Origin: Bacteroidota bacterium
GTDB lineage: Bacteria; Bacteroidota; Bacteroidia; Bacteroidales; Marinifilaceae
Direction of reading: 5' to 3'
Assembly: GCA_023400335.1 (NCBI GenBank)
Contig: JAEXFF010000166.1
Span: 1-17,834 of the forward strand
Length of the DNA stretch: 17,834 nt
Part shown: positions 961 through 17,834 of the stretch, piece after piece
How the letters are laid out: each line of letters starts with the position of its first letter
Position numbering within the stretch: the first letter of the stretch is position 1
The notes under the pieces: model-generated
Told to the model about the DNA's origin: nothing
Seen by the model: only the letters and a program-made list of their open reading frames with translations
Database searches by the model: none
Position numbers and translations under genes: made by a program

Positions 961-983
961 ATATTATATTCGTATTTTACAGC

Positions 984-2493: not shown

Positions 2494-2498
2494 AGCAA

Positions 2499-2794: not shown

Positions 2795-2805
2795 TATACT
2801 TTTTG
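2795..2805 (+). promoter_or_regulatory. Possible -7 box of the lipoprotein gene
   Basis: TATACTTTTTG is one base too long to be a perfect TAnnTTTG box but is the best candidate upstream. It would start transcription near 2811, leaving about 28 bases of leader before the ATG at 2839 and excluding the in-frame TTG at 2791 as a start. Weak evidence. Confidence 0.3.
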
Positions 2806-2838
2806 ATAGAATATAAAAAACAACTAAACGAATATTAC

Positions 2839-4305
2839 ATGAAAATTATTTTCTATATCATTTTAGTTTCGGCTATCTTATTTTCATCCTGCGCTTCTAC
2901 CCGCAGTCTGAACAACACGATAGAAGACGATATATATTTTGTCCCCGGCAGTAAGCCGCTTCTGGTACAGGAAGTGGAAAACGTCACCGGACAAAGTATT
3001 CCCCTGACTTCAGGTAATCGTCAGTCTGCTCCTTCCCTGGATAAAAATACCCCCGGGAACAGTGCGCTTGTCATCAATCGCCGGCAAGGTACAATAGAAG
3101 AAATCAGTACAAGTACCCTGACATCCAGGGCAGAACAACGTTTAGCCGAATCGGAGGTGGTCAATGAAACGCTTTATGAAAATACGGGTTACTGGATCGG
3201 TGGTTTTAAAGGCAGCGATAGCGACCTGAAGGAAGCGGCACGGATTATAGCCCGTTATCCGGACGGATTTGGGTATATTGCTAACGGAGAAGAAATTGCC
3301 TTGAATTTATCCTTTAGCCCGGATTGGAACGTTTATACCGATAACGGTCGTTACTGGTGGTTCCCCTCCTATACCAACGTGAAACTTTATTCCACTCTTT
3401 TATTCGGAACCTATCCCGAGTATATCTGGACGGTAGTCTGGGAAGATCCGCGTTACGACGTGATCGCTTTCGACAATCAGTTTAATTTCGGACTAAACAT
3501 TGGCTGGGGAAGTCCCGGATGGAATTTCGGATTCGGCTGGAATTCCGGTTTTTACCGTCCTTGGTATAACGGTTGGTACGGACCTTACTGGAGTGGCTGG
3601 TACGATCCCTGGTGGGGATATTACCCCGGTTGGGGATATCCGGGCTGGGGTCCCCCGCACGGACATTACCCACCCCACTGGGGCGGCGGAAATCACCACC
3701 CGGGCGGAAATATTCCTTCACACCGGCCAGGTAATCTGCGGCCCAATTACGGAGGGGGTTCCATTGGTTTACGCCCGAACAACCGGCCGGGAACAAATAC
3801 CCGCCCGAATGTAACAGGACGTCCCAATACGTCCGTTACCCGGCCAAACGTAAACACCCGGCCGAATTACAGTACTTCCAGACCTTCAACGGGAGTAAAC
3901 ACCCGGCCGTCTACAGGCACCTCCACCCGGCCGTCGGTAACGACCCGGCCCAGCACAACCCGGCCGACAAACAAATATACGCGTCCGGGAACCTCCTCTA
4001 CCGGTACAAACCGGTATACACGCCCCAGTAACAGTTCTACCGGAACAAACCGGTATACAAGGCCCAACGTAAGACCGAACACGAACAATAGCATAAACCG
4101 TAGTACAACCCGGACATACAACCGGTCGTATAATAACTACCGGCCAAGTTATAACAGTAACCGTTCTGCTTCTCCAACGAGAAATAGCAGCAGTTATCAA
4201 AGAACGCCTACACGCAGCTCAACTTATTCTCCCTCCCGCTCAACCGGGACCAACAGGTCATCCGTAAGCCCGTCGAGATCAACCCGTTCAGGAGGAAGAA
4301 GATAA
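2839..4305 (+). CDS. Lipoprotein with an aromatic Gly/Trp/Tyr-rich middle and Thr-Arg-Pro-rich tail
   Basis: I start it at the ATG at 2839, which gives 488 residues and a lipoprotein signal peptide, MKIIFYIILVSAILFSSC, with the lipobox Cys at residue 18. An in-frame TTG at 2791 would bury this signal. The N-terminal ~220 residues look globular (for example YWIGGFKGSDSDLKEAARI and WEDPRYDVIAFDNQ). Residues about 220-300 are packed with Trp, Tyr, Gly and Pro (PWYNGWYGPYWSGWYDPWWG), followed by a His/Gly stretch. From about 310 to the end it is basic low complexity built on TRPN/TRPS units and closing in Ser/Arg-rich sequence. I recognise the arrangement as a hypothetical protein type of Bacteroidales, but no function is established. 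The FadL-type porin starts 29 bases after it, so the pair is probably an operon and the product envelope-associated. The basic tail could bind an acidic surface polymer; that is inference. Confidence 0.85.
   Translation: MKIIFYIILVSAILFSSCASTRSLNNTIEDDIYFVPGSKPLLVQEVENVTGQSIPLTSGNRQSAPSLDKNTPGNSALVINRRQGTIEEISTSTLTSRAEQRLAESEVVNETLYENTGYWIGGFKGSDSDLKEAARIIARYPDGFGYIANGEEIALNLSFSPDWNVYTDNGRYWWFPSYTNVKLYSTLLFGTYPEYIWTVVWEDPRYDVIAFDNQFNFGLNIGWGSPGWNFGFGWNSGFYRPWYNGWYGPYWSGWYDPWWGYYPGWGYPGWGPPHGHYPPHWGGGNHHPGGNIPSHRPGNLRPNYGGGSIGLRPNNRPGTNTRPNVTGRPNTSVTRPNVNTRPNYSTSRPSTGVNTRPSTGTSTRPSVTTRPSTTRPTNKYTRPGTSSTGTNRYTRPSNSSTGTNRYTRPNVRPNTNNSINRSTTRTYNRSYNNYRPSYNSNRSASPTRNSSSYQRTPTRSSTYSPSRSTGTNRSSVSPSRSTRSGGRR
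3994..4071 (+). repeat. Two tandem 39-bp coding repeats (13-residue unit)
   Basis: Units 3994-4032 and 4033-4071 each encode SSTGTNRYTRP plus two residues, with high nucleotide identity. They sit in the longer TRP-rich tail (about 3780-4000), where Pro-Arg-Thr units recur at irregular spacing with repeated ACCCGGCCG-like DNA. The pattern suggests expansion by replication slippage and could make tail length vary between strains. Confidence 0.8.
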
Positions 4306-4334
4306 CGAAAGTTTAACAAAACAGTCGACATGCC

Positions 4335-5846
4335 ATGAAAAAGTTATACGTACTAGTTGCCTTGTTTTTAACCTCCGGCATCGCATTTGCACAAACAGAT
4401 GCCGACGTATTGAGATTCTCCAGAACCCTTCCCCTCGGCACCGCCCGTTCGGCAGCCATGAGCGGAGCTTTCGGAGCATTGGGTGGTGACATCTCTACTT
4501 TAAACGTAAATCCGGCAGGTATAGGTGTATTCCGGAAATCGGAAGCCAGCATTACCCTTTCGCCGGATTTCGGGAATACCAAAGCCGGAGGCCAAACAGC
4601 ACACGACAACTCTTTTCAGATGGGAGATATCGGGGTCGTTATCTCATTATATAATCCCAATTTTGATTGGAGAGGGATTAATTTCGGGATCAATTATACC
4701 AATATGAATAACTTTAACCGGCATACGACTCAAGCCATCGCCAAATCCCCCAATTCTTTTTCCCAATATCTGGCACAGGACATCAACGCTTTAATAGCCT
4801 ACGTTCTCAGTCAGAATCCGACAGCAGACCTGGCAGATTATTTCAGCGAACTGCAATGGCTGGGGATTGAAAGCAATTTTATACTTTCTGATAACGAAAA
4901 CGAGGATAATCCTTATTTCGAACCTGCCATTATCGGTGCCAACCAGAAAAAAATCATAAAAGAAGACGGCTATCAGGGAGAATATGCCTTTTCTTTCGGT
5001 ACAAACTATAAAGACAAACTCTATTTAGGAATAACAATCGGTCTACAGAATATTTATTATAAAATGAAATCCGTATACTCCGAAACTCCGGACCAGGACA
5101 ATCCCTACGAATTGGAACGTTTTAATTTTGAAGAACACCTCAAAACAACAGGAGTGGGAACCAACTTTAAATTCGGTGTTATTTACCGGCCGATTCCCGA
5201 ATTACGGCTGGGAGCGACGATTCATACCCCGACTTATTACTCGATGACCGATACTTACGATGTAGGGATGTATACTAAATACAAAACCCCTGTAGACGGA
5301 CAAACAGAATATTATGGCGGTCCTTCTTATTATAAGTACGACTATGATCTAAAAACTCCCTGGAAAGCCATCTTAAGTATTGCCGGAGTGATTCAGCAAA
5401 AAGCAATTATCAGTTTCGATTACGAATATGTAAACTACAGTTCTGCCCGGCTAAAAAACGGAGCAGACGGATATGATTATTACGAACCCGACGGCAGCGG
5501 TGTAAATAACCAGATCAAAGATTACCTGAGTTCCACCCATAATTTCAGGTTAGGAGCCGAATACCGGATAAACAGCATGGTTAGTGTGAGAGGAGGTTAT
5601 TCATTCTATGCCAGCCCTTATAAAGACAATAAAGATCTGAATAAAATACAAACCTTATCCTGTGGCTTCGGTCTCAATTTCGGTCAATTTTACTGCGACG
5701 CAGCTTATATTTATAAATTTTCCAAAGATATAACACGTTTTTACAGCTATTATGATGAAGATCCGGAATACGATGTTATCGCAGAACCGATCAATAACAA
5801 ATACAATAATCATATTGCGAAGGTATCCGTGGGGATGAAATTCTAA
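4335..5846 (+). CDS. Outer-membrane beta-barrel transport protein, OmpP1/FadL/TodX family
   Basis: FadL-type porins carry hydrophobic compounds across the outer membrane; the substrate here cannot be told from sequence. The 503-residue product has a Sec signal peptide (MKKLYVLVALFLTSGIAFA, cleavage before Gln20). An N-terminal plug-like region of the family type follows: LPLGTARSAAMSGAFGALGG, then TLNVNPAGIGVF. The rest is alternating amphipathic strands rich in Tyr and Asn, ending in a terminal Phe (KVSVGMKF), the usual beta-barrel assembly signal. It lies 29 bases after the lipoprotein gene on the same strand and likely shares its transcript. No terminator with a clear T-tract is visible directly after its stop; the next structure is the palindrome at 5965-5999. 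Confidence 0.88.
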   Translation: MKKLYVLVALFLTSGIAFAQTDADVLRFSRTLPLGTARSAAMSGAFGALGGDISTLNVNPAGIGVFRKSEASITLSPDFGNTKAGGQTAHDNSFQMGDIGVVISLYNPNFDWRGINFGINYTNMNNFNRHTTQAIAKSPNSFSQYLAQDINALIAYVLSQNPTADLADYFSELQWLGIESNFILSDNENEDNPYFEPAIIGANQKKIIKEDGYQGEYAFSFGTNYKDKLYLGITIGLQNIYYKMKSVYSETPDQDNPYELERFNFEEHLKTTGVGTNFKFGVIYRPIPELRLGATIHTPTYYSMTDTYDVGMYTKYKTPVDGQTEYYGGPSYYKYDYDLKTPWKAILSIAGVIQQKAIISFDYEYVNYSSARLKNGADGYDYYEPDGSGVNNQIKDYLSSTHNFRLGAEYRINSMVSVRGGYSFYASPYKDNKDLNKIQTLSCGFGLNFGQFYCDAAYIYKFSKDITRFYSYYDEDPEYDVIAEPINNKYNNHIAKVSVGMKF

Positions 5847-5964
5847 AACAGAAAGTGTTACCGGGTCCTACAGCTGAATGAAATAATACTCATAGGCTTT
5901 ATAAAAGGGATAAATTATAGAAAAGCTGCGAAAGTTTACCGTTTTTTAAAAATTTATCCTTTTG

Positions 5965-5999
5965 AAAATATTACTTTTGTCCTTCAAAAGTAATATTTT
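5965..5999 (+). promoter_or_regulatory. Perfect 15-bp palindrome containing the likely miaB -7 box
   Basis: Arms AAAATATTACTTTTG (5965-5979) and CAAAAGTAATATTTT (5985-5999) are perfectly complementary around the 5-base loop TCCTT, and are followed by T's up to the miaB ATG at 6003. The left arm contains TACTTTTG (5972-5979), an exact TAnnTTTG -7 box. That would place the transcription start near 5985 with a leader of roughly 18 bases. The same structure, stem plus T-run, could instead be an intrinsic terminator for the upstream porin gene, or an operator overlapping the promoter. No clear -33 element is seen. Confidence 0.5.
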
Positions 6000-6002
6000 T
6001 TT

Positions 6003-7325
6003 ATGGGAAAAAAATTCTATATAGAAACGTACGGTTGCCAGATGAATGTAGCGGACAGCGAAGTAGTAGCAGCCATTCTGACCGCCAAAGGATTCGAACA
6101 CGTCAAAGATAAAAACAGAGCGGACATCATTCTGGTAAATACTTGTTCGGTACGGGAAAACGCAGAACAAAGAGTAAGAGGAAGGGTACAGGGATTTTCT
6201 GAAATCCGGAAACAAAATCCCCGTTTACTGATCGGAGTAATGGGATGTATGGCTGAACGGCTGGGAGAAAAACTGTTCGAACAGGAAAAAAACGTCAATA
6301 TTGTAGTAGGACCGGACGCCTATATGGATTTGCCGTTATTGATCGAAAAAGCAAACCGGGGGGAAAAAGCAATCAATATCCAGCTTTCCGAAACGGAAAC
6401 TTACAAGGACATTTGTCCTTCGCGTATTGATGAAACCTCTATTTCCGGTTTCGTGTCCATCATGCGCGGATGTAATAATTTTTGTACTTACTGTATTGTT
6501 CCCTATACAAGGGGACGCGAACGCAGCCGCAGTCCGCACAGTATTATCGGTGAAGTAATCGATTTACAGAAACGGAGGTTCAAAGAAGTGACCCTACTGG
6601 GACAGAATGTCAATTCATACTGGTATAAAGACGAAAAAACAAGCGTGGACTTTCCTGCCTTACTGGCTCTGGTAGCCCGCACAGTTCCTTCCATGCGTAT
6701 CCGTTTTGCCACTTCTCATCCCAAAGATATGAGTAATCAGACGCTGGAAACGATTGCCCGTTATCCTAACATTTGTAAAGCAATCCATTTGCCGGTACAA
6801 TCCGGAAGCAATCCGGTACTAAAAAATATGAACCGGAAGTACACCCGGGAATGGTATCTGGACCGGATTGCGGCCATCCGGCAAATCATCCCGGATTGCG
6901 GAATCTCTACCGACGTATTTGTCGGTTTTCACAACGAAAGTGAAGCCGATTTCCGGGAAACCCTTTCCCTCATGGAAGAAGTGAGATTCGACCTGGCCTA
7001 TATGTTTAAATATTCCGAACGCCCCGGTACGATAGCTTCCAAACGTTTGCCGGATAATATCGACGAAGAAACCAAAGGGCGCCGGCTTCAGGAACTCATC
7101 GACCTGCAAATCGGCTGGTCGCTCGAAAGCAACCGGAAAGATATCGGAAAAACCTTTGAAGTATTGGTTGAAGGAACCTCTAAAAAAAGCCCGGACGAAA
7201 TGTTCGGACGCAGTAGCCAGAATAAAGTGATCGTGTTTCCTTCCACTACTACCTGCACAGGAGATCTGGTCCGGGTAAGAGTGAAAGACTGTACTTCAGC
7301 AACCTTAATTGGGGAACTTGTCTAA
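6003..7325 (+). CDS. miaB: tRNA-2-methylthio-N6-dimethylallyladenosine synthase
   Basis: A radical-SAM methylthiotransferase that adds a methylthio group at C2 of i6A37 next to the anticodon of tRNAs reading UNN codons. Three domains are clear in the 440 residues. The N-terminal MTTase domain holds its auxiliary 4Fe-4S ligands at C12 (ETYGCQMN), C48 (NTCSVREN) and C82 (GVMGCMAE). The radical-SAM domain has the CxxxCxxC motif at C157, C161 and C164 (MRGCNNFCTYCIVPYTRGRE). A C-terminal TRAM RNA-binding domain covers about 375-440. NTCSVREN and the length favour MiaB over RimO or MtaB. The ATG directly follows a palindrome, so the leader is probably very short and without a Shine-Dalgarno sequence. 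The next gene, also an RNA methyltransferase, starts 10 bases after the stop, pointing to an RNA-modification operon. Confidence 0.97.
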   Translation: MGKKFYIETYGCQMNVADSEVVAAILTAKGFEHVKDKNRADIILVNTCSVRENAEQRVRGRVQGFSEIRKQNPRLLIGVMGCMAERLGEKLFEQEKNVNIVVGPDAYMDLPLLIEKANRGEKAINIQLSETETYKDICPSRIDETSISGFVSIMRGCNNFCTYCIVPYTRGRERSRSPHSIIGEVIDLQKRRFKEVTLLGQNVNSYWYKDEKTSVDFPALLALVARTVPSMRIRFATSHPKDMSNQTLETIARYPNICKAIHLPVQSGSNPVLKNMNRKYTREWYLDRIAAIRQIIPDCGISTDVFVGFHNESEADFRETLSLMEEVRFDLAYMFKYSERPGTIASKRLPDNIDEETKGRRLQELIDLQIGWSLESNRKDIGKTFEVLVEGTSKKSPDEMFGRSSQNKVIVFPSTTTCTGDLVRVRVKDCTSATLIGELV

Positions 7326-7335
7326 AATCTTTTTT

Positions 7336-7896
7336 ATGAAGTATAAAAAACGCCAGAACGAAGAACTCCACCGGATAAGCCCGGACGCTTTTAAATCAGC
7401 ATCGAAAATGCCCGTTGTCCTCTTGCTGGATAATGTGCGCAGCCTGAATAATGTAGGATCTGTCTTCCGTACTTCCGACGCTTTCCGGATTGAAAAAATT
7501 TACTTATGCGGCATTACAGCTACTCCGCCCAACCGGGAAATCCATAAAACAGCATTGGGAGCCGAAGACAGTGTCGACTGGGAATACAGTAAAGATACCC
7601 TGCCTGTCGTTGCCGGATTGAAAGTCCAAGGCTATAAAGTCTATGCGGTAGAACAAGCGGAAAACAGCATTTCCCTGGAAAATTTTTCCCTTTCTCCGGA
7701 AGAGAAATATGCCCTGATTTTCGGAAACGAAGTGAAAGGCGTACAGCAGGAGATTATAGACGAAGCAGAAGGCTGTATTGAAATCCCCCAATACGGTACC
7801 AAACATTCATTTAACATTTCTGTCAGCGCCGGCATTGTTCTCTGGGAATTGATTCACCCCCGTATTAAGGAAGTCTGCAAACGGACAGAAAAATAA
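7336..7896 (+). CDS. TrmH/SpoU-family RNA 2'-O-methyltransferase
   Basis: A SPOUT-fold S-adenosylmethionine-dependent methyltransferase acting on tRNA or rRNA ribose; the target base cannot be told. I start it at the ATG at 7336 (MKYKKRQNEELHRIS, 186 residues). A longer frame begins at a TTG inside miaB and adds nine unlikely residues. Family motif 1 is DNVRSLNNVGSVFRTSDAF (32 onward). Motif 2 is YALIFGNEVKGV (about 125-136), and motif 3 is QYGTKHSFNISVSAGI (from 152), which forms the trefoil-knot cofactor site. There is no N-terminal SpoU substrate-binding (L30-like) domain, so it is a minimal catalytic version, as in the short TrmH-like proteins. It follows miaB by 10 bases and is very likely co-transcribed. 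Confidence 0.92.
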   Translation: MKYKKRQNEELHRISPDAFKSASKMPVVLLLDNVRSLNNVGSVFRTSDAFRIEKIYLCGITATPPNREIHKTALGAEDSVDWEYSKDTLPVVAGLKVQGYKVYAVEQAENSISLENFSLSPEEKYALIFGNEVKGVQQEIIDEAEGCIEIPQYGTKHSFNISVSAGIVLWELIHPRIKEVCKRTEK

Positions 7897-8066
7897 AATA
7901 TTTCAAACGGACAGCTCTTTGTATTCGATTCAAATTCGTCTGACAGTTCACTCCTTACCAAACCTTTGGTTCGGATAAAATAATCTTTCCGTAACCTCAG
8001 TTTTGTTTATTAGCGAAAGGTGAATCTCTTTCTGCAGCAAGCGTTTATCCGTAAACAATAGTCCGC

Positions 8067-8903
8067 TCAGGATTCTTTCAGTTGCCCGATCAGTTTTACA
8101 GCTTCCACAGCCTCTTTGACATCGTGTACCCGTAAAATATCCGCTCCTTTTAACAAAGCAATTGTATTTAGAACCGTCGTTCCGTTTAAGGCTTCAGCCG
8201 GAGTAATTCCCAACGTTTTCCATATTGTTGTCTTCCGGGAAATTCCCACCAACAAGGGATAGCCTAAATCCCGGTACTGATACATTCCGTTCAACAACTG
8301 GAAATTGTGCCGTATCGTCTTCCCGAACCCGAACCCCGGGTCCAGTATAATATTGTCGAATCCTTTCCGGTCCAATTGTCCGATACGACTGATAAAAAAA
8401 TCCCGGACATCTTCTACAACATCCCGGTACACCGGATTTTTTTGCATTGTCTGCGGCGTTCCCTGTATATGCATCAGGATATAAGGGATACCGGTCCGGG
8501 CCACAAAATCGAACATTTTCTCATCCATCGTTCCTCCGGAAATGTCGTTTATGATAACCGGTCCCATACAGGTATTGACTTCTTCTGCTACAGAAGCCCG
8601 GAATGTATCGATAGAAACGAGGGCATCCGGATAATATTTCCGAATCAATTCCACGGCAGGCATCAAACGGGCCGTCTCTTCTTTTTCATCGACGAAAGCA
8701 GCGCCGGGGCGGGTAGAATAAGCCCCCACATCAATTATATCCGCTCCCTCCTCCATAATCTGGTGAATACGCCCGATCACTTTTAATTCACTGACGTATT
8801 TTCCCCCATCGTAAAAAGAATCCGGTGTCACGTTTAATATACCCATTACCCAGGGACGGGATAAATCGAGGGGATGTCCTCCTAACAAAGGAAATTTCAA
8901 CAT
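8067..8903 (-). CDS. folP: Dihydropteroate synthase
   Basis: The enzyme condenses 6-hydroxymethyl-dihydropterin pyrophosphate with p-aminobenzoate in folate synthesis and is the target of sulfonamides. The 278 residues show the standard TIM-barrel motifs in order: GILNVTPDSFYDGG (pyrophosphate/pABA loop 1), DIIDVGAYSTRPGA (loop 2, STRPG), VSIDTFRASVA, INDISGG, ILMHIQGTPQTMQ, ILDPGFGFGKT, VGISRKT (the SRK pterin/phosphate motif) and LRVHDVKEA near the end. The start ATG (MLKFPLLGGHPLDLSRPWVM) gives the expected length. It is divergent from the DUF1599 gene, with a 114-base spacer, and convergent with the methyltransferase gene, 170 bases from its stop. That convergent spacer holds only a 6-bp inverted repeat, ACCAAA (7957-7962) with TTTGGT (7965-7970). 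Confidence 0.97.
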   Translation of the reverse strand: MLKFPLLGGHPLDLSRPWVMGILNVTPDSFYDGGKYVSELKVIGRIHQIMEEGADIIDVGAYSTRPGAAFVDEKEETARLMPAVELIRKYYPDALVSIDTFRASVAEEVNTCMGPVIINDISGGTMDEKMFDFVARTGIPYILMHIQGTPQTMQKNPVYRDVVEDVRDFFISRIGQLDRKGFDNIILDPGFGFGKTIRHNFQLLNGMYQYRDLGYPLLVGISRKTTIWKTLGITPAEALNGTTVLNTIALLKGADILRVHDVKEAVEAVKLIGQLKES

Positions 8904-8919
8904 AGTACTGTTAAATTTG

Positions 8920-8948
8920 AGAATTGAAAATGAAGGATTATCAATTCT
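8920..8948. promoter_or_regulatory. Inverted repeat in the folP/DUF1599 divergent spacer
   Basis: AGAATTGA (8920-8927) and TCAATTCT (8941-8948) form a perfect 8-bp inverted repeat with 13 bases between, about 17 bases upstream of the folP ATG. It could be an operator for a shared regulator or a hairpin in the folP leader. TACATTTC at 8989-8996 is a seven-out-of-eight -7-like box that may serve the plus-strand gene. Both are AT-rich and could be chance. Confidence 0.3.
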
Positions 8949-9017
8949 ATTTATTAATTTTACACGTTCAAAGTAACAACGAGTTTTTTACATTTCATAA
9001 TGTAAGGGGACAAATTT

Positions 9018-9590
9018 ATGGCGAATACAGCACAAGAATACGATAAGGTGATCCAGATATGCCGTGACATTTTTATAAAAAAAATGCACGATTACGGAAC
9101 CGCCTGGCGAATTTTACGACCGACATCCTTGACCGACCAGATATTTATCAAAGCCAACCGCATCCGTTGCATTGAAGAAAAAGGTATTTCCAAAATACAC
9201 GAAGGGATAAGTTCTGAATTTATCGGCATTGTCAATTATGCTCTCATGGGGTTAATTCAATTGGAACAAAAAAGTGAAACAGAACTGCCTGCTGAAAAAA
9301 TTACAGAATTGTACGACCTTTATTTTCAAAAAGCCAAACAATTAATGGCAGATAAAAATCATGATTACGACGAAGCCTGGCGGTATATGCGAATCAGTTC
9401 CTATACAGACCTGATTCTGATGAAAATTAAACGCACTAAGCAAATCGAAGATCATCAGGGAGATACCTGGATATCGGAGGGGATAGATGCAAACTATTAC
9501 GATATGATCAATTATGCAGTATTCGCATTGATACGGCTCCTTGTGGAAAAAGAAGAAACAGAGCCGGCAGCCCCGGAAGCAAGGAGTTGA
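9018..9590 (+). CDS. DUF1599 protein with two tandem domain copies
   Basis: The 190-residue protein is an internal duplication. Copy 1 (about 7-85) has KKMHDYGTAWRILRP, IFIKANRIRCIEEKG and FIGIVNYALMGLIQLE. Copy 2 (about 96-178) has DKNHDYDEAWRYMRI, LILMKIKRTKQIEDH and YYDMINYAVFALIRL. The HDYxxAW motif recurs at 24-30 and 115-121, a 91-residue period. I recognise this as the DUF1599 (PF07659) type found in Bacteroidota. Members elsewhere have been proposed to act in nucleotide modification, but no reaction is proven for this form. The conserved His/Asp/Trp in each copy suggest a small helical domain with a real active or binding site. The position between folP and the DoxX/tpiA genes is, as I recall, conserved in related Bacteroidales. 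Start chosen at the ATG at 9018. Confidence 0.88.
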   Translation: MANTAQEYDKVIQICRDIFIKKMHDYGTAWRILRPTSLTDQIFIKANRIRCIEEKGISKIHEGISSEFIGIVNYALMGLIQLEQKSETELPAEKITELYDLYFQKAKQLMADKNHDYDEAWRYMRISSYTDLILMKIKRTKQIEDHQGDTWISEGIDANYYDMINYAVFALIRLLVEKEETEPAAPEARS

Positions 9591-9696
9591 TGCCTTGCGT
9601 TACCCGGTATCAGTGCTCCAACTGACCGTTCACTCAAAGAGGTAAGTGTACCCGTACCCAGAATAACACACTACATAACAGCAAAATGATACACTT

Positions 9697-10944
9697 ATGA
9701 AATTTATTGCAAATCTTTTCCGGATACTTTTAGGGTTGGTATTCATCTTTTCAGGCTTTGTAAAAGGGATTGATCCGTTGGGTTCCGAATATAAATTTAT
9801 CGATTATTTCAATGCTTTCGGAATAGGAAGACTCAATGCTACTGCCCTGTTTTTTTCTTTCCTTTTGTCGGGATTGGAGTTTTTGATCGGAATTTGTCTT
9901 CTTCTGAATATTAAAACCAAATGGGGGGCTTGGGGAGCCTGGTTGTTTATGCTGATATTCACCCTTATCACCCTTATTCTGGCCGTGCGGAATCCGGTGA
10001 CCGATTGCGGCTGTTTTGGGGACGCCATCACACTGAGTAATTGGCAGACATTCTGGAAAAATATTATTCTCTTATTTATGGCTTATCTGGTATTCCGCCG
10101 GAGGAAGCATTTTAAACCCATATATAATTTTCTCGAACAAACAGTGCTGTTCCTCGGATCTGTTATTTTTATAGGCTGTGTGGAAGGCTACAGCTACCGC
10201 CACTTACCGATTATCGATTTCCGCCCCTATGCCATTGGGGCCAATATCCCGGAAAGTATGGACATACCGGCAGATGCTCCCCACGATCAATACCGGATTT
10301 TGTTGAAATACCGGAATAAAAATACAGGGGAACTACAGGAATTCGACGAACAGAATTATCCTTGGCAAGATACCCTAAATTGGGAATTCCACAGTTCAGA
10401 ACAAAAATTGATTCAAAAAGGCTATCAGACTCCCATACACGATTTTGTAATTGAACATCCCGAATGGGGAGACATTACGGAAGAAGTGTTACAGGACGAC
10501 AATTATACTTTTTTAGCCGTATCTTATCAGATAGATAAAATCGTCCCCTCTGCTTTGGACCGGCTCAACGAACTGGCTGATTATGCCCGGGCCAAAGGGT
10601 ACCGGTTTTACGGATTGACAGCATCCGATCCGGAAGAAATCCGGCAGCTTCAGTCCGGCCATCCCTTGCATTTTGATTTTTGCACGACGGACGAAATACA
10701 ATTAAAGACCATGATCCGCTCAAATCCAGGGCTTCTCTTATTGAAAAAAGGCACAATTATCGATAAATGGGGATACCGAGATATTCCTTCCGTAGACAAG
10801 CTCGCAGGGAAAGATCCCCTCGCTTATTGCCTGACAGAACAACAGCGGGTTACCAACCGTTACGTTCTCTATTCCCTCGCCTTATTATTCCTGTTCCTTC
10901 TAACTTTCTACACCTTGAAGAAGTATAAAAAGGGAGGAAGATAA
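9697..10944 (+). CDS. DoxX/MauE-like membrane protein with C-terminal periplasmic domain
   Basis: The N-terminal ~145 residues form a four-helix DoxX/MauE-type membrane domain (LFRILLGLVFIFSGFVKGIDP at 7 onward, FFSFLLSGLEFLIGICLLL, WLFMLIFTLITLILAV, NIILLFMAYLVF). The signature DCGCFGD has C104 and C106 in the loop before helix 4. A further helix (about 148-165, LFLGSVIFIGC) follows, then about 220 soluble residues, and a last helix (VLYSLALLFLFLLTFY) with a basic cytoplasmic end. Part of the soluble region (FLAVSYQIDK, ALDRLNELADYARAKGYRFYGLTA, SNPGLLLLKKGTIIDKWGYR) looks thioredoxin-fold-like but has no CxxC. MauE relatives take part in disulfide or redox chemistry of exported proteins, so an envelope redox role is an inference. 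tpiA starts 39 bases downstream. The stretch 9591-9696 ahead of it holds no gene that I can see. Confidence 0.82.
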   Translation: MKFIANLFRILLGLVFIFSGFVKGIDPLGSEYKFIDYFNAFGIGRLNATALFFSFLLSGLEFLIGICLLLNIKTKWGAWGAWLFMLIFTLITLILAVRNPVTDCGCFGDAITLSNWQTFWKNIILLFMAYLVFRRRKHFKPIYNFLEQTVLFLGSVIFIGCVEGYSYRHLPIIDFRPYAIGANIPESMDIPADAPHDQYRILLKYRNKNTGELQEFDEQNYPWQDTLNWEFHSSEQKLIQKGYQTPIHDFVIEHPEWGDITEEVLQDDNYTFLAVSYQIDKIVPSALDRLNELADYARAKGYRFYGLTASDPEEIRQLQSGHPLHFDFCTTDEIQLKTMIRSNPGLLLLKKGTIIDKWGYRDIPSVDKLAGKDPLAYCLTEQQRVTNRYVLYSLALLFLFLLTFYTLKKYKKGGR

Positions 10945-10983
10945 ACGACGAAATTCTGTAAACTTTAATAATAAATCACTGAC

Positions 10984-11751
10984 ATGAGAAAAAAAATTGT
11001 AGCAGGTAACTGGAAAATGAATAAAACGCTTCCTGAAGGTATTCAGTTGGCTAAAGAAGTAAATGAAAAAGTAAAGGCTTTAAATGTTCCGCACGTAAAA
11101 GTCATCCTTGCTCCCCCCTTTATCCATTTGGCTGAAGTAAACAAGGTTGTCGATCCTGCAATTGTATCCGTTTCTGCTCAAAATTGTGCCACAGAAGCTT
11201 CCGGAGCTTATACGGGCGAAGTGTCCGCTGCCATGATAGCTTCCACTGACAGTACTTATGTCATACTGGGACATTCCGAAAGAAGAAGTTATTACGGAGA
11301 AACCGATGCCGTTCTGGTAAAAAAAGTAGCACAGGCATTAAACAATCAGCTGGACATTATCTTCTGTATAGGAGAAGTATTGGCCGAACGGGAAGCCGGA
11401 AAACATTTTGAAGTGGTAAAATCTCAATTGATAAACGGACTTTTCCAGCTTTCTCCTGAGGAATTTTCCCACATCATTTTGGCCTATGAACCGGTTTGGG
11501 CTATCGGAACCGGAAAAACAGCCACTTCTGCTCAGGCACAGGAAATGCATGCTTTTATCCGCAATGTACTGACGGAAAAATACGGCAAAGAAATAGCAGA
11601 AAACACCTCTATCCTTTACGGAGGAAGCTGTAATGCCAAAAATGCCGACGAACTGTTCGCCAATCCGGACGTAGACGGAGGCCTTATCGGCGGAGCTTCT
11701 CTGAAAGCCGAGGATTTTTCTATTATCATAGCCGCCCGCGCCAACCACTAA
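10984..11751 (+). CDS. tpiA: Triosephosphate isomerase
   Basis: The enzyme interconverts dihydroxyacetone phosphate and glyceraldehyde-3-phosphate in glycolysis and gluconeogenesis. The 255 residues carry all the classical elements: GNWKMN with N9 and the electrophilic K11, [24 protein letters not shown] with H97, [15 protein letters not shown] with the catalytic base E169 and the phosphate-gripping loop 6, and [15 protein letters not shown] with [12 protein letters not shown]. Length is normal and no residue is missing. It starts 39 bases after the DoxX-like gene and is probably co-transcribed with it. A REP-like hairpin begins 7 bases after its stop. In Bacteroides, as I recall, a SPOR-domain gene and folE follow tpiA; here accessory DNA follows instead. 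Confidence 0.98.
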
Positions 11752-11757
11752 AGCAAA

Positions 11758-11792
11758 AATGGTGACAAGGGGACGGTTCTTTTGTCACCATT
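11758..11792 (+). repeat. REP-like palindrome, copy 1
   Basis: Arms AATGGTGACAA (11758-11768) and TTGTCACCATT (11782-11792) form an 11-bp perfect stem around a 13-base loop, GGGGACGGTTCTT. I recognise this GTGACA-rich motif with a GGGACGGTTCTT core as a short repeat scattered in many bacterial genomes and linked there to REP-associated tyrosine transposases. Read on the minus strand the stem is followed by a run of five T's, so it could terminate transcripts entering from the regulator gene. Confidence 0.8.
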
Positions 11793-11867
11793 GCAAATCC
11801 CAATCAACCTCCTACTTCTATACAAGCCAAACTTTACATAAAACGAACCTATGCCTATTATAGCTCG

Positions 11868-11886
11868 GATTTATTCCGAATAAATC
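11868..11886. repeat. 19-base palindrome inside the REPIN-like element
   Basis: GATTTATTC (11868-11876) and GAATAAATC (11878-11886) are perfect inverted 9-mers around a single C. A protein-binding dyad is more plausible than an RNA hairpin, because a hairpin would lose the inner pairs to a loop. Function unknown. Confidence 0.5.
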
Positions 11887-11962
11887 GCTTCTGACTTACG
11901 TTATGGAAAATTCTGTACTTTCCTCAACAGTAGCTTGCCATTTATTGTATAAATAAAAAAAT

Positions 11963-12589
11963 TCAAAACTTCCGGCTCAAATTAAATAAATGAAATGGTG
12001 ACAAAAGAACCGTCCCCTTGTCACTGTTTTTCAGGTACTCTATTTTTTTTCGAATATAAATGTCAAGGGAACAAGTCAGGCCCATTTGTTTCCGGATCCG
12101 ATAGGATTTAGTGTAAACAGAACCTTTGTTCGACAATTCGTAAATAAAACTCAACTCCTCTACTGTAAAACCGACTCCAATAAAACAGACAAATTCGATA
12201 TCTTCCTCTCTTAGATCCGAATGACACCTGCGAATCTCGTCCACAATCCCATAATAGCAATAATTGATTAAATCACACCACAATTTCCGACCCGCATCTG
12301 AAACCAGATTTTGTTCCATTAAAACATAAACTTTCCGAAAACATTCCTCTTTAGAACCTTTATAAAAAATCAAAATATTTAATAACTTACGGAAAAAAAT
12401 CAGCATTACTTCTGAATCTCTTTTTTTTAACTCTTTTGTAATCTTCCTCTTTTTAAATAATGCCAAAGCAGGGAAGCAAAACTTTTTCCATTTTTTTTTG
12501 AACAATTTCCAGACTTCACTTTTTCTGTAACTTCTCAAATCAATTGTATTAAATAAACATTTCCTCATATTATGTAAGTTAATTTTCAT
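11963..12589 (-). CDS. Small helix-turn-helix (LuxR/sigma-region-4-like) regulator with a REP-derived C-terminus
   Basis: The 208-residue protein has a very basic N-terminal half (MRKCLFNTIDLRSYRKSEVW, FKKKWKKF, LFKKRKITKELKKR). It is followed by helical sequence and, at about 124-176, a motif like the C-terminal DNA-binding domain of Bacteroidota orphan LuxR-type regulators: LREEDIEFVCFIGVGFTVEE, then a degenerate recognition helix and SYRIRKQMGL. The canonical recognition-helix consensus is only partly kept, so DNA binding is a moderate inference. Residues 189-199 (SDKGTVLLSPF) are coded by the REP-like repeat, and the last nine residues lie in the element spacer, so the original C-terminus was probably replaced by insertion. 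The gene is AT-rich compared with the core genes. It lies downstream of the RHS operon on the same strand, 271 bases beyond the 86-residue gene. It may be functional or decaying. Confidence 0.6.
   Translation of the reverse strand: MKINLHNMRKCLFNTIDLRSYRKSEVWKLFKKKWKKFCFPALALFKKRKITKELKKRDSEVMLIFFRKLLNILIFYKGSKEECFRKVYVLMEQNLVSDAGRKLWCDLINYCYYGIVDEIRRCHSDLREEDIEFVCFIGVGFTVEELSFIYELSNKGSVYTKSYRIRKQMGLTCSLDIYIRKKIEYLKNSDKGTVLLSPFHLFNLSRKF
11994..12024 (-). repeat. REP-like palindrome, copy 2 (inverted), inside the regulator's 3' end
   Basis: AATGGTGACAA (11994-12004) and TTGTCAC (12018-12024) pair around AAGAACCGTCCCC. The unit is the reverse complement of copy 1. Read on the plus strand the stem is followed by TGTTTTT, so it could stop plus-strand transcripts coming from tpiA. 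Confidence 0.8.
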
Positions 12590-12779
12590 AAATTATAATA
12601 TGAAAATACAAAACTTTACATTTACATTTTGAAATATTCTTTTAATACAATTCTATTTACTTTATTATCATATAATGATATACTAATAATATTTATAATA
12701 TATTTTGTTAATTAACTGACAATAAAGATAAAAAGAATAAAATTATTTAAATTGATAAATTTTTTTAATATTGAAAAAT
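12590..12779. other. Very AT-rich spacer upstream of the regulator gene
   Basis: Almost entirely A and T with short homopolymer runs. No gene, RNA gene or long repeat is visible. It should hold the promoter of the minus-strand regulator, but I found no exact TAnnTTTG box on that strand. The composition fits horizontally acquired DNA. Confidence 0.5.
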
Positions 12780-12849
12780 AGAGAGGCTATCTTTATTTTT
12801 TTACAAAATTTTATCATAAATCTTGATATATATAATCAACAGCCTCTCT
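12780..12849 (-). terminator. Inverted repeat AGAGAGGCT/AGCCTCTCT downstream of the 86-residue gene
   Basis: AGAGAGGCT (12780-12788) and AGCCTCTCT (12841-12849) are perfect 9-bp inverted arms around an AT-rich 52-base loop. On the minus strand the second arm is followed by ATTTTT, and the structure begins 11 bases after the stop of the 86-residue gene. That fits a terminator for the RHS operon. Similar AGAGGCT...AGCCTCT stems are common at Bacteroidales gene ends, usually with a shorter loop. The long loop leaves open an eroded insertion-sequence or MITE end pair. Confidence 0.5.
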
Positions 12850-12860
12850 TATTTAGAAAC

Positions 12861-13121
12861 TTAATTTACCAATTTCACCAATTGACGGATTGTTTCATCT
12901 GAATCGCAATTATCTTTTAATTCTTTTCGGATTTTTATCTCATATTCTTTAGAAACGACTCCTTTCTTCATCAAAGAAAGTTCTTGAAGCAAATTTTCAA
13001 TTAAATACCAATCTTCTCTTTTCATTTCGTAAGAAGAATCAGTTCCCATCGTCATCCGACACCATGTATCGACATCACCATGGAATGAATTATAAATTTC
13101 TAACTTTTTTTGTGTAATCAT
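12861..13121 (-). CDS. Putative immunity protein for the RHS toxin
   Basis: An 86-residue acidic-to-neutral protein without signal peptide or membrane segment (MITQKKLEIYNSFHGDVDTW). It appears mostly helical, with a WYLIENLLQELSLMKKGVVS helix pair and a C-terminal DSDETIRQLVKLVN helix. I do not recognise the family. Its ATG overlaps the RHS stop as ATGA (13118-13121), so it is translationally coupled to a gene whose C-terminus looks like a toxin. In polymorphic toxin systems the gene in this place almost always encodes the cognate immunity protein, which stays in the cytoplasm and blocks the toxin active site. The immunity role is therefore inferred from position, size and lack of a secretion signal only. 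It is as AT-rich as the toxin end of the preceding gene, consistent with the two having been exchanged together. Confidence 0.75.
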   Translation of the reverse strand: MITQKKLEIYNSFHGDVDTWCRMTMGTDSSYEMKREDWYLIENLLQELSLMKKGVVSKEYEIKIRKELKDNCDSDETIRQLVKLVN

Positions 13122-16100
13122 TTAGGTATAACATTATGATAAATAATTGGATTTTTCCCATTTAAAATAGGATACTCTACAGTACTCCAAACACTCTCTA
13201 TACTTATTCCATTTTTGGCATTTTGGAACACATGGACTGGTCCTTTCGCTCCTTTCGCGTAGGTGGCTGACAAACGTTCCCAAAGGGGCTTAGCTTCTTC
13301 CCAAGACATATTTTTGGTCAATTCGCTTAGATTTCGCCCCGCACGTGTCATCTCTAAAGTAGTCATACCATTTGCTTTGGCAAAATTCATTGCTTCTTCT
13401 AGAACACCTCCCGACCAGAATACGCGTGTAAGCTGGGAAGCAGCTGGTTTGACAAAAAATTTACCAATATTTCCCAGAGCAACTATTCCTTCAATTCCAC
13501 CGGTAGTCAAAAAAACAGCAGCATTCATAACTCCTTGAGTGACCGGATGATGAATAAAATCCTCGCGGCCTTTATTGACCAAAGATTGCATTAGTCCTAC
13601 CTGACTTTTAAGAGAAAGAGGGCTTCGCCTGTTCAATAACTGAGCGGACAAAGAAGGATCATTCAAAACTCTGAAACTGGCACTTTTCGGTACGTTAGAG
13701 ATCGAAATGGGTACATTCTGATAGTAATTTATGTATGAACCATCTATCTGACCGACAGAAACAGAAGTCCCGATATTTGAAAAGGTCTCTCCGTTAAGAA
13801 CCACTTGTTTATCCTGACGATCCAGCCAGAGAAGGGCTCCGCTACCCGAAGCATACCAATCGTCCAGCATACCGTCTGCATCGACCCGGGTGACGGGATT
13901 ATTTCCGCAATAATGGTAAGGGGTCAAAGCATAATTTTTCTCCGCCATCGGATCAACAGTCATCCATTTTCCCAAAGAGGCATCGTACATCCTCGCTCCA
14001 TAATCCAACAATCCCAGATTGCCTACTGTCTGACATTCCTTACCACTGAATTTCTCCCGGTTTACAGCCAGCTGAGGATAATTTTCTTTCAGCTGACGGG
14101 TTCCGAAAAGGTAGTAATCATTACGCTCCCGGACCTTCCCGTCAGCGTCGACTACAGCACGTACGCTCCCTAAATGATCTGTCAGATAATAATAAACCTC
14201 GTATCCACTTGTACCTGAAACGATACGGCCACCTCCGAAAAGGGCACTTTCCAGTGTCAAAGAACTTCCATTACGGGTATATACAAAACTTCCCCGGTAA
14301 TCCCATCCCCGGCCGTCTGCCCCCTTTACGCCTACTTTATTGCCATTATAAGCATAGCGATAGGCAGCTTTTAAATTATTGGCAGAAGTGACCTGTCTCA
14401 ACAAATTTAAATAATTATATTGATAATTCAAGCCCTGCCGCGTATCTGTCTGCAAATTTCCGTCTGCATCATACGTATACGCTCCTGCCACATTATTTCC
14501 TCTTGCATAAATATCTCCGGAAACCGGCGCAGCATTTTCGGCAAGCGCCGTCAATTGATTTCCGGTATAAGTATACACCAAGTTATCTACGACAGCAGCT
14601 GTCGTGCCGGTCCGCCGTAACGTCTTTATATTTCCATTTAAATCATAAGTAATCTCTTGTTCTGTATTCCGGTTATCCAACGTATTACCGCTGAAGGAAC
14701 GGGCCCCTTTAAAGCGTCCGTAAACATCATAATCTATGGCATAAGTAAAAGAATTTCCACTTCCCTGTGTCCATTCCCATTCGCTGATATTTCCGGTATA
14801 AGCAGCCGTCGAACCGCTTTTCGAAGGCTGTCCGTAACGGAGGTACATGGAAAAAGGAGCTGAGACCCGGCTGTCCAGCCAACCCTGAAGGGTATACGTA
14901 AACGATTCAGTACAGGCCGTCTGTCCGTAAACCCGTTTTGAAAGCTGCCCCAGACGATCGTACTGATACTCTAGCTGCCCTTTCCCCTCCCCGTTCAGAA
15001 CCGTCTCTGTACTTAACAGCCTTCCCTGACGATCATAGGTATTTGTAGTCCTTAAAATTGAAGTAACAGTAGTTTCCGCAGCAGATTGTTCCTGCACCTG
15101 AATTTCATTTCCGACGAAATCATATGCTTTGGAAAGAGTACTTGTTAACTCTTCCGGATTTTTCTCCTTGACTTCCAGGATCCGTCCTTCTTTATCGTAA
15201 GTATATGCTTTTTCTATATAATGGGAAACGGTATTATCATTCTCCATAATCGCCAGTTTTTCCCAGGTTAACAATCCTTTTGGGGCAGTAAGACTTTTGG
15301 AATTTTCCTTTTCAATAATAGGTATCTTGTCCGGCAACAAAGGCACAGAAGAATCGTCCGAGGCAAAGAGAGTGGGAGACAACAGACGATAGCTGTCATA
15401 AGCACATTCTTGCAATAAAATCCCGCTTGTCAGGTAGAGAGAATTTGTATTTCCCGTATCGAAAAGATTCTGTAAAGCAGAACGGGCAGAAGTATGGGAA
15501 ATCAGCTTCACTTCTGTCAACCGCCCCAAAACATCATAGCGGTTCAATTTCCAACGGTTGGAAGCCCTTAAGTTTCCGTTCTGCCACATTACTACCCGGT
15601 TCCCTTTATCATAAACAGAATACTCTTCTGACATTCCGGGTAATTTTCTTCCGATCAGGCGGTCGTATTTATCGTAAGTATAAAGATAACTATACTGAGT
15701 AGCTATGATATGGGTCCGGCCCACGGTCAGCCCGCTGCTCAGCAAGGCAGAACCCTCCGGAGAAATAACGGCTGCCACCCTTCCCTGATCATCGAATACA
15801 GAATAAGTATCCGCTTTATCACTTCCTTCTCCTATTTGCCGCAGCAATACAACCTTACCTGAAATATCCGTAAAGCTTTCCGAGGTGCGGCCGTCTGCGT
15901 CTGTTATTACAGTTTTATGCAGAGAATGTGCCGGATAATATCCCTCCACTTTAAAGCTTCCGTCATTATTTACCATAAACCGAAAAACTTCATTCGCCGC
16001 ATTCGTAGCATAACGATAAATTGTTTTTTTATCTTTTTCCCGGAAAATTTTTCCTGTATTATAAGAATATAAGACCCGCTCTAAAGGTGAAGCTTCATAC

Positions 16101-17299
16101 TTTTTTTCTGCATAGGTATATGCTCCTTCGCCCGGATATAAAGCAGCATAAAAAGAAGACTGATGCCCTAAAGCTTCCGAATCGTATCTCCCCTTATTAG
16201 CGGCAAGAGCATAAGGCAAATACGTTCTGGCATCTTCTCTGCCTAATTCATCATAATAGACAGGCATTATTAAATCGCTGCCGTCCGGTGCAGCCTCTAT
16301 CCCGATTTCCTGAGCTTTCCGTCCCAGTCCGTCGTAATAGGTAATAGTAGAACGATAATAATCTTCCGGATCAGTACTTTCATTCTTTAAGGCCGTCGTT
16401 TTCAGAATATAATTCCGGTTTCCGAAAACATCCTTTTTCAGGATACAGACATTACTATAAGCGGTCTGCGTCCCGCTACTGACCATTCTCCGGAAATACA
16501 TATTTTCAGCAGGTGCATTGACAGTATAATCTTTTTTATAGGCATTCCCTATACTTTTCCAGCCTCCAGAAGTATATTGCTGCCAGGCATAATAATAACT
16601 TCCTCTTCCTCCTTTTGCCTCACATCCCTCCAACTTACAGGAAGTAGCTCCCTCTGAAAAATACTGAACAGCAGGTATCGTTCCCGCTTCTAAAGCAACA
16701 TAAGGTTGCTGGGAATAAAAGAATTTCATCGTCCGTTCACAGCGTCTCTCCGTATAACTCCCATCTGAGTGTATCTGTCCGTTTTCATTCAGATAAACCG
16801 TATTATAGTGAATCACCACTTCCCCCTCGATAATGGCGTTCGTATAATTCGGTTTAAAACTGACATGACTGGGACCGTAATGACAAGAAATAGAGTTAAT
16901 TTGCCCACCGCTATCCTCAAAACGGACAAACTCAAAACGAATCAGTTTTTCCGGTTCTATAGGATCGACCGGTTCTACCGGAATGGGATCCGAAAGTAAC
17001 CTGGCCTGAGCATTCGTTGTCAAATCTGTTATTTCGGGTAATAACAAAAGGGTATCTTCCACAGCAACACAAGTATCAACAATTTCCTCCTTGTCTTCCA
17101 CAACCGTATAAGCCGAATAAGCCCCAATTTTAAAAGAAACAAACGTTTCGTCGAATCCGACCGGTACCTTGGGCTCAAAAGCGGAAGTATGGGCAGACGG
17201 AAACACCAGATAAAATTCTCCCAAAAAAATTACCGAATCGGAATATACAATTCCGACCCTGCAACAAAATAAGAATATAAGAATAATCAATTTTTTCAT
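13118..17299 (-). CDS. Secreted RHS-repeat polymorphic toxin with a CD38-like ADP-ribosyl cyclase C-terminus
   Basis: The 1393-residue protein starts with a Sec signal peptide (MKKLIILIFLFCCRVGIVYS). Residues about 215-290 resemble an Ig/PKD-like fold (GRGSYYYAWQQY, YFRRMVSSG). A DUF6443-like block follows at about 300-420 (STITYYDGLGRKAQEIGIE, YYDELGREDARTYLPYA). A long series of YD repeats comes next (for example YDKYDRLIGRKLPG, YTYDKEGRILEVKE, YTYDADGNLQTD). The RHS core (YLTDHLGSVRAVVDADGK near 1036; GLLDYGARMYDASLGKWM near 1097) ends with VDADGM1144. Beyond the core lie a linker, a hydrophobic segment (1256-1283) and a ~110-residue toxin domain. RHS shells form cocoons that hold the toxin until release. 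The gene follows another RHS gene by 10 bases and overlaps the putative immunity gene. The N-terminal signal suggests Sec export, not a PAAR/T6SS-type N-terminus. Single intact frame, no frameshift. Confidence 0.93.
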   Translation of the reverse strand: MKKLIILIFLFCCRVGIVYSDSVIFLGEFYLVFPSAHTSAFEPKVPVGFDETFVSFKIGAYSAYTVVEDKEEIVDTCVAVEDTLLLLPEITDLTTNAQARLLSDPIPVEPVDPIEPEKLIRFEFVRFEDSGGQINSISCHYGPSHVSFKPNYTNAIIEGEVVIHYNTVYLNENGQIHSDGSYTERRCERTMKFFYSQQPYVALEAGTIPAVQYFSEGATSCKLEGCEAKGGRGSYYYAWQQYTSGGWKSIGNAYKKDYTVNAPAENMYFRRMVSSGTQTAYSNVCILKKDVFGNRNYILKTTALKNESTDPEDYYRSTITYYDGLGRKAQEIGIEAAPDGSDLIMPVYYDELGREDARTYLPYALAANKGRYDSEALGHQSSFYAALYPGEGAYTYAEKKYEASPLERVLYSYNTGKIFREKDKKTIYRYATNAANEVFRFMVNNDGSFKVEGYYPAHSLHKTVITDADGRTSESFTDISGKVVLLRQIGEGSDKADTYSVFDDQGRVAAVISPEGSALLSSGLTVGRTHIIATQYSYLYTYDKYDRLIGRKLPGMSEEYSVYDKGNRVVMWQNGNLRASNRWKLNRYDVLGRLTEVKLISHTSARSALQNLFDTGNTNSLYLTSGILLQECAYDSYRLLSPTLFASDDSSVPLLPDKIPIIEKENSKSLTAPKGLLTWEKLAIMENDNTVSHYIEKAYTYDKEGRILEVKEKNPEELTSTLSKAYDFVGNEIQVQEQSAAETTVTSILRTTNTYDRQGRLLSTETVLNGEGKGQLEYQYDRLGQLSKRVYGQTACTESFTYTLQGWLDSRVSAPFSMYLRYGQPSKSGSTAAYTGNISEWEWTQGSGNSFTYAIDYDVYGRFKGARSFSGNTLDNRNTEQEITYDLNGNIKTLRRTGTTAAVVDNLVYTYTGNQLTALAENAAPVSGDIYARGNNVAGAYTYDADGNLQTDTRQGLNYQYNYLNLLRQVTSANNLKAAYRYAYNGNKVGVKGADGRGWDYRGSFVYTRNGSSLTLESALFGGGRIVSGTSGYEVYYYLTDHLGSVRAVVDADGKVRERNDYYLFGTRQLKENYPQLAVNREKFSGKECQTVGNLGLLDYGARMYDASLGKWMTVDPMAEKNYALTPYHYCGNNPVTRVDADGMLDDWYASGSGALLWLDRQDKQVVLNGETFSNIGTSVSVGQIDGSYINYYQNVPISISNVPKSASFRVLNDPSLSAQLLNRRSPLSLKSQVGLMQSLVNKGREDFIHHPVTQGVMNAAVFLTTGGIEGIVALGNIGKFFVKPAASQLTRVFWSGGVLEEAMNFAKANGMTTLEMTRAGRNLSELTKNMSWEEAKPLWERLSATYAKGAKGPVHVFQNAKNGISIESVWSTVEYPILNGKNPIIYHNVIPK
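13121..13447 (-). other. C-terminal toxin domain, ADP-ribosyl cyclase (CD38/ARC)-like, of the RHS protein
   Basis: This covers residues about 1285-1393. The active-site pattern of CD38 and Aplysia cyclase is visible in order: W1295 in VFWSGG; E1316 in TLEMTRAG, 21 residues later, the same spacing as W125 to E146 in human CD38; W1340 with S1344 (LWERLSATYAKGA), as W189 and S193; PVHVFQNAKNG, like the VVHVMLNG strand; and E1375 in WSTVEYPIL, as catalytic E226. W1340 to E1375 is 35 residues, against 37 in CD38. The disulfide-bonded insertion between E146 and W189 is shortened, and the Cys are absent. Predicted reaction: NAD+ to nicotinamide plus cyclic ADP-ribose or ADP-ribose, that is, NAD+ depletion in the target cell. 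This is alignment by eye from memory. Confidence 0.7.
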
Positions 17300-17310
17300 G
17301 GCACATCTGT

Positions 17311-17834
17311 TTATTGTTGGACATGGTATTCGTAGTTCTCTTTCAGATAGCCTTGTCCATCGGTCACATTTTTCAAGCGTCCGTAGCTATCGTATTGGTA
17401 CTGTACTTTTATGCCGGCGGGATCTGTAACCGAGATTACCCCGACATAAGGCAGATAGTCGTAAGTGGTGACTAAAGTCCCCGCCAGTTTCCGGAGTTCC
17501 ATTTCCTGAACGTTTGAAAGGGTTCCGGTTAAAGGAGTCTTTTCGAGCGCAGACAATCCTGAAACCTTCTTAACATTTGTCAGGCTGGCGTTTTCTACTT
17601 TTCCGATCAGGTATAATCCACCATAACCCCAGATATAAACCGTCTTTTTTCCTTCCTTATCAGTAGTCTGCAGAATATTCCCCTGTTTATCGTATAAATC
17701 ATACGTCAATTCCGTGTCTGTATAAAGGGAAGGCTGAAAAAGAGAGGCGGATATAGGTTGGTCAAATCTGGCTTTCCGGACAGCAGACGGCAATATCAGA
17801 TTATTGAATAAGCCAAATTCCGTTTGTTCTCCTC
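17311..17834 (-). CDS. RHS/YD-repeat protein, C-terminal part only (runs off the right edge)
   Basis: The frame is open from the right edge to a TAA at 17311-17313 and gives about 174 residues; a TTG at 17791-17793 inside it is not a real start. It contains FNNLILPSAVRKARFDQP, YDLYDKQGNILQTTDKEGKK, VYIWGYGGLYLIGKVENA, LVTTYDYLPYVGVISVTDPA and a final YD repeat YQYDSYGRLKNVTDGQGYLK, ending YEYHVQQ. I recognise this as the C-terminal portion of a large Bacteroidota RHS/YD-repeat protein that is usually encoded directly before a DUF6443-type RHS gene. The spacing to that gene here is 10 bases, so the two are surely one transcript. It ends without any toxin-like domain, so it is likely a shell or surface-display partner. 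The N-terminal majority lies outside the window. Confidence 0.9.
   Translation of the reverse strand, partial: GEQTEFGLFNNLILPSAVRKARFDQPISASLFQPSLYTDTELTYDLYDKQGNILQTTDKEGKKTVYIWGYGGLYLIGKVENASLTNVKKVSGLSALEKTPLTGTLSNVQEMELRKLAGTLVTTYDYLPYVGVISVTDPAGIKVQYQYDSYGRLKNVTDGQGYLKENYEYHVQQ

Follow-up and report, generated by a model that had tools for sequence, protein, structure and literature searches.

A CD38-family Tox-ARC tip, predicted to destroy NAD(P)+, on an RHS protein from Bacteroidales

The locus

The DNA analyzed here, called the window throughout, is a stretch of 17,834 nucleotides (nt) from a Bacteroidota bacterium of the order Bacteroidales, family Marinifilaceae (assembly GCA_023400335.1, contig JAEXFF010000166.1, positions 1 to 17,834). 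It encodes a 1,393-amino-acid (aa) RHS polymorphic toxin, and our subject is the C-terminal tip of this protein, whose sequence and predicted fold resemble those of the ADP-ribosyl cyclase (ARC) family that includes human CD38. From the N to the C terminus, the open reading frame (ORF) encodes a stretch resembling a Sec-type signal peptide (judged by eye), DUF6443 (PF20041; residues 300 to 431, 105.1 bits in Pfam), the RHS-associated core (TIGR03696; residues 1062 to 1144, 57.7 bits in NCBIfam), a linker, and the ARC tip. The other RHS matches lie below the Pfam threshold. DUF6443 and the core precede the tip within one ORF, with the tip at the C terminus of its carrier. The coordinates that a first-pass annotation, made from the letters alone, had given for the domain are exact (Table 1).

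The toxin stop codon and the ATG of a downstream 86-aa ORF share 4 nt (ATGA, positions 13118 to 13121). Upstream, another RHS-repeat gene stops 11 nt before the ATG of the toxin gene and is possibly its operon partner. The Sec-like N terminus, taken with this second RHS-repeat gene, is suggestive of a pair of secreted RHS proteins. At E ≤ 1, Pfam detected no PAAR domain in the 1,393-aa protein; only the 3' end of the upstream RHS gene falls within the window.

Table 1. Coordinates of the features discussed in the text
Feature	Position	Strand	Basis
ARC (CD38-like) C-terminal domain, residues 1285-1393	13121..13447	-	profile and PDB sequence matches, fold match
W1295 codon	13415-13417	-	
E1316 codon	13352-13354	-	
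W1340 codon	13280-13282	-	
E1375 codon	13175-13177	-	
1393-aa RHS polymorphic toxin ORF	13118..17299	-	Pfam and NCBIfam domains
86-aa ORF, probable cognate immunity gene	12861..13121	-	role inferred from position
3' end of another RHS-repeat gene, cut by window end	17311..17832	-	
208-aa ORF downstream of the 86-aa gene	11963-12589	-	no Pfam or PADLOC match

Identity of the tip

The first-pass annotation had compared the tip with CD38, and this assignment passed both the profile and the PDB sequence checks. Searched alone against the PDB sequences with phmmer, the tip found 9RO8 at E = 3.5e-5 and 9OUF at E = 0.015. These are the structures of two bacterial toxins, ARCtox of Pantoea ananatis and Tac1 of Streptococcus parasanguinis, respectively. 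A six-row profile reached them at 8.3e-8 and 2.2e-6 and a 98-row profile at 3.4e-14 and 1.2e-12; the latter next reached CD38 (5bnf, 2.8e-8), the Aplysia cyclase (1.4e-5), and human CD38 (4.2e-5 at best). The ARC fold that had been expected is present in the predicted structure of the tip, and the 50 matches listed by Foldseek and by VIA-align are all ARC-family entries. Taken together, these sequence matches and the predicted model support the view that the C-terminal approximately 109 residues belong to the same family as human CD38, as a Tox-ARC domain. The strong evidence for this identity lies in the independent phmmer, profile, and fold matches, not in the motif or its spacing.

Catalytic residues and their conservation

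All five residues singled out from the sequence stand where they had been placed: W1295, E1316 (in TLEMT), W1340, S1344, and E1375 (in a VE pair). The CD38 counterparts of W1295, W1340, and S1344 are W125, W189, and S193. The spacings given for the tip, 21 between W1295 and E1316 and 35 between W1340 and E1375, are correct. Their use as a signature did not hold, as exact spacing is not diagnostic; the first W-E gap in CD38 chain 3gh3 is 20 by our own count, and the ARCtox gaps are 26 (W273-E299) and 33 (W323-E356) by the published numbering (Martinkus et al. 2025, PMC12605009). A loose motif of the form W-x18-TLE...W-x3-S...E appeared in none of 20,000 shuffles of the domain, which is weak evidence because the motif was picked after the sequence was seen. 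The tip is free of cysteine, as had been noted; a 145-aa piece containing it holds none.

In the phmmer alignment, counted by hand, W1295, E1316, W1340, and E1375 align with ARCtox W273, E299, W323, and E356, and alanine at any one of these four positions removes ARCtox toxicity in Escherichia coli (PMC12605009). Tac1 E573 and E516 correspond to CD38 E226 and E146 (Colautti et al. 2025, PMC12356396), and by position E1375 matches the first pair and E1316 the second. Conservation was counted in an alignment of 98 rows (A2), which holds 97 of the 120 profile matches listed, out of 243 in all; the remaining 23, of which 14 are shorter than 100 aa, were set aside manually on no fixed criterion. 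With gapped rows excluded at each column, the residue is conserved in 92 of 94 rows for W1295, 91 of 98 for E1316, 97 of 98 for both W1340 and S1344, and 95 of 96 for E1375. All four of W, E, W, and E are kept in 81 of the 92 rows that have letters in all four columns. Two rows (P0032 and P0048) have Y at the W1295 column, probably no true change because the sequence preceding their TLE motif is unrelated. What this analysis provides on the domain is sequence homology, a predicted fold, and the conservation of four catalytic positions.

The second glutamate is replaced in seven of the 98 rows, by D (2), N (2), or G (3) (P0028, P0029, P0030, P0053, P0054, P0071, and P0117), and these keep the catalytic glutamate and the second tryptophan. 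By analogy with the bacterial ARC protein Nac1, which has Ala where Tac1 has Glu516 and gives cyclic ADP-ribose and ADP-ribose about equally (PMC12356396), cyclic ADP-ribose may be a product of some of these variants; the replacements could also be sequencing errors.

Proposed function and its alternatives

We read the gene, with a probability of about 92%, as an RHS polymorphic toxin whose C-terminal Tox-ARC tip depletes NAD(P)+ in the target and which is guarded by the 86-aa gene. Activity, toxicity, and neutralization have been shown in distant relatives; for this protein, we infer activity, delivery, target, and immunity. The Sec-type N terminus would export the toxin, and the RHS shell would carry the tip to a neighboring cell. 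In the cytosol of the target, NAD+ and NADP+ would bind to the ARC domain in a cleft that has two lobes and W1295 and W1340 in its lining; there, E1375 would catalyze the loss of nicotinamide and E1316 would favor the cyclic intermediate going on to hydrolysis to ADP-ribose. NAD(P)+ would collapse and growth would stop, while the product of the overlapping downstream gene would shield the producing cell, probably by blocking the cleft. The chemistry that we predict for the tip is NAD(P)+ glycohydrolysis with ADP-ribose as the end product, because E1316 is kept and the two toxins that keep this glutamate, Tac1 and ARCtox, gave no detectable cyclic ADP-ribose. From NAD(P)+, ARCtox forms nicotinamide and ADP-ribose (PMC12605009), and in Tac1 it was the E516A variant that did give cyclic ADP-ribose (PMC12356396).

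Several points weigh against this interpretation. The TM-scores of the tip model are only about 0.5, and its first 40 or so residues have low confidence, so the N-terminal lobe is poorly defined. PF02267 stays below its gathering cut-off of 25 bits, with 15.4 bits for a 310-aa piece and 17.9 bits for the 145-aa piece, and NCBIfam gives no ARC match at E ≤ 0.01 for any of the 98 rows of A2. At least one of the four catalytic residues is missing in 11 of the 92 complete rows, and our literature search found no enzyme assay of any close relative. Moreover, ARCtox E299A lost toxicity yet still depleted NAD in cells (PMC12605009), and the role assigned to E1316 therefore rests on Tac1 and CD38.

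Cyclic ADP-ribose had been put forward at the first pass as a possible product, and the domain might then be mainly a cyclase that releases it as a signal rather than a hydrolase that depletes NAD. The tip fold does match the Aplysia cyclase as well as CD38, and the even product mixture of Nac1 shows that a bacterial ARC protein can form it. However, Nac1 has lost the glutamate that the window protein shares with Tac1 and ARCtox, and the RHS shell and the overlapping small gene indicate a toxin, so that we do not expect mainly cyclic ADP-ribose as product and consider a mainly signaling enzyme improbable. We give slightly less weight still to the idea that the ARC fold has been kept in a domain that is enzymatically dead or acts on a substrate other than NAD(P)+. 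The 11 rows that lack at least one of the four residues, and the lack of an assayed near relative in the literature searched, would fit it; against it, the window protein and most of the aligned relatives retain S1344 and all four residues, and a small gene coupled to the toxin gene is what one expects if the toxin is active.

It is equally hard to favor a host (eukaryotic) cell over a bacterium as the main target. The tip fold matches a human enzyme, and an attenuated ARCtox also inhibits yeast when it is made inside yeast (PMC12605009). An overlapping candidate immunity gene, however, implies a risk of killing self or kin, which is typical of antibacterial toxins, and Zhang et al. (2012, PMC3482391) argue likewise for Tox-ARC. 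In addition, no eukaryote-specific delivery feature is present among the Pfam and NCBIfam matches of the toxin protein. Very probably the ARC tip poisons rival bacteria by destroying their NAD.

Comparison with known ARC toxins

The tip is a further example of a known toxin type, which had been predicted in 2012 and was demonstrated by two papers in 2025. Zhang et al. (PMC3482391) placed Tox-ARC in bacteroidetes among other groups, in association with RHS repeats and with type II, V, VI, and VII secretion systems (T2SS, T5SS, T6SS, and T7SS), suggested NAD(P) depletion as one mode of action, and gave the immunity proteins as primarily Imm74 and also Imm63. The combination of bacteroidetes, RHS, and T2SS was thus tabulated in 2012, and characterization of the toxins Tac1 (PMC12356396) and ARCtox (PMC12605009), each with a structure, followed in 2025, so the claim that such a system is little described does not stand. 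A figure legend of Martinkus et al. (PMC12605009) lists a protein from Allomuricauda. This genus belongs to Bacteroidota. Among the papers listed by our literature searches, which did not reach most subscription papers, none dealt with a Bacteroidales RHS-ARC protein or with the 86-aa immunity gene.

Like the Tox-ARC systems of 2012, whose table row includes RHS repeats, T2SS export, and bacteroidetes (PMC3482391), the window protein has its ARC domain at the toxin tip; it may differ in immunity, Pfam recognizing neither Imm74 nor Imm63 in the downstream gene. ARCtox (PANA_2924) is the best match in both sequence and fold, its four catalytic residues align, and it too has a small downstream immunity gene; it differs in its PAAR/T6SS carrier and its W-E spacings, and it is 28 to 31% identical to the tip (PMC12605009). 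The likeness to Tac1 lies in the fold and the catalytic residues, including the second glutamate E516, whereas its carrier is of the LXG/T7SSb type and its immunity protein, Tci1, belongs to the Imm74 superfamily (PMC12356396). With the metazoan enzymes CD38, BST1, and Aplysia ADP-ribosyl cyclase (PF02267), the tip has in common the core catalytic fold and the W, E, W, and E positions. The metazoan chains among the fold matches are 229 to 255 residues long, whereas the tip has about 109, lacks cysteine, and is below the Pfam cut-off. A CD38-type warhead with a defined predicted active site, predicted to destroy NAD(P)+, sits on a probably secreted Bacteroidales RHS protein.

The 86-aa neighbor gene

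By its position, the 86-aa ORF is the probable cognate immunity gene. A coupled immunity gene is expected for such a toxin, and the ATGA overlap fits this. Among six candidates, the 86-aa protein had four relatives besides itself at E ≤ 0.01, with 73 to 85% identity. Pfam gave no match at E ≤ 10 for any of these five proteins, a negative that HMMER filters may widen by hiding weak matches. Consequently, neither Imm74 nor Imm63 is recognized in the family, the Imm models not having been tried singly. The 86-aa protein also gave no match in NCBIfam, PADLOC, or plasmid records, and its best PDB sequence match (E = 0.09) is unconvincing. Its model is mostly helical at low confidence (predicted local distance difference test [pLDDT], 66.5), with a single Foldseek match at E = 8.9. 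The gene downstream of the ARC domain of a Hymenobacter plasmid protein does not align with it. We offer only tentatively, and with more doubt than belief, the proposal that the 86-aa protein founds a helix-rich family of ARC immunity proteins, as yet undescribed, that blocks a Bacteroidales Tox-ARC by a mode unrelated to that of Imm74, and that the second-glutamate variants are toxins that release cyclic ADP-ribose rather than solely destroying NAD. Both the gene and the variants could add to the work of 2025.

Relatives and possible tip swapping

A full-length search returned seven proteins among 77 candidates, every one with an RHS-type Pfam label. One (P0004) is 81% identical over the whole length, its core ending in DPDG where the window protein has DADG. 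In another (P0005), the tip is 67% identical but the shell differs by eye, and from these sequences this looks like the pattern of a swappable tip. The profile search found 243 proteins at E ≤ 1e-3, of which 120 were listed. Six of the matches listed carry an organism name: Porphyromonadaceae, Saprospiraceae, Arachidicoccus, Bacteroidota, Flavobacterium, and Pedobacter, the five narrower groups all being Bacteroidota. A precomputed PF02267 label is present on 6 of the 120; at the loose limit of E ≤ 0.01, 64 of the 98 rows of A2 match PF02267. These counts indicate many related tips that are scarcely labeled in the databases.

The 310-aa tail matched 37 plasmid records. Among the 20 listed, the match is confined to the RHS core and linker (residues 1 to 136 of the tail) in 18 and lies in the ARC part in two, one from Hymenobacter (H5), whose protein has a 37%-identical ARC tip, and one from Streptomyces (H10). 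A plasmid search at the DNA level gave no match. One record from Bacteroides finegoldii (H4; L002:4791-5765) has an RHS core like that of the window, there encoded by a gene whose annotation is a JAB-like toxin; this is consistent with tip swapping or polymorphism. This record is labeled a plasmid and contains miaB, truB, and an FtsX gene; it is perhaps a mislabeled piece of chromosome. The MiaB encoded in the window shares 61% identity with the B. finegoldii protein.

In viral contigs, 91 stretches matched a pattern in a search with profile A1 and none encoded a relative; phage records gave no match. A scan of genome contigs returned a single locus, in a Clostridia record (L001), with a 46% match over query residues 37 to 70. 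It was rejected as a false positive because the 889-aa ORF concerned, which contains an EEAKPLWE-like piece, shows no visible ARC motif and profile A1 has no match in that genome (G001). Across 299 genomes of the phylum of that record, profile A1 matched three loci. Two (L004:1477-1713 and L005:1432-1866) encode ARC-like domains, each with PF02267 at E = 1.3e-4, below the cut-off, and the ORFs downstream of them have no Imm74 match; the third (L006) matched at E = 9e-4. A PF02267 search of three records and 14 controls matched none of them and is uninformative, since it missed the Hymenobacter ARC (W02) too.

Other features of the window

The NCBIfam matches of the 208-aa ORF are very weak, the best being the BT3442 family at 17.1 bits against a cut-off of 940. 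A 41-nt inverted repeat (positions 11755 to 11795 and 11991 to 12031; core GGTGACAAAAGAACCGTCCCCTTGTCACC) has arms that are 93% complementary and lie 195 nt apart, one in the end of the 208-aa ORF and the other between this ORF and a triosephosphate-isomerase-like ORF. Its 27-nt core has no exact copy in viral contigs. The repeat may be a repetitive extragenic palindromic (REP)-like or mobile element.
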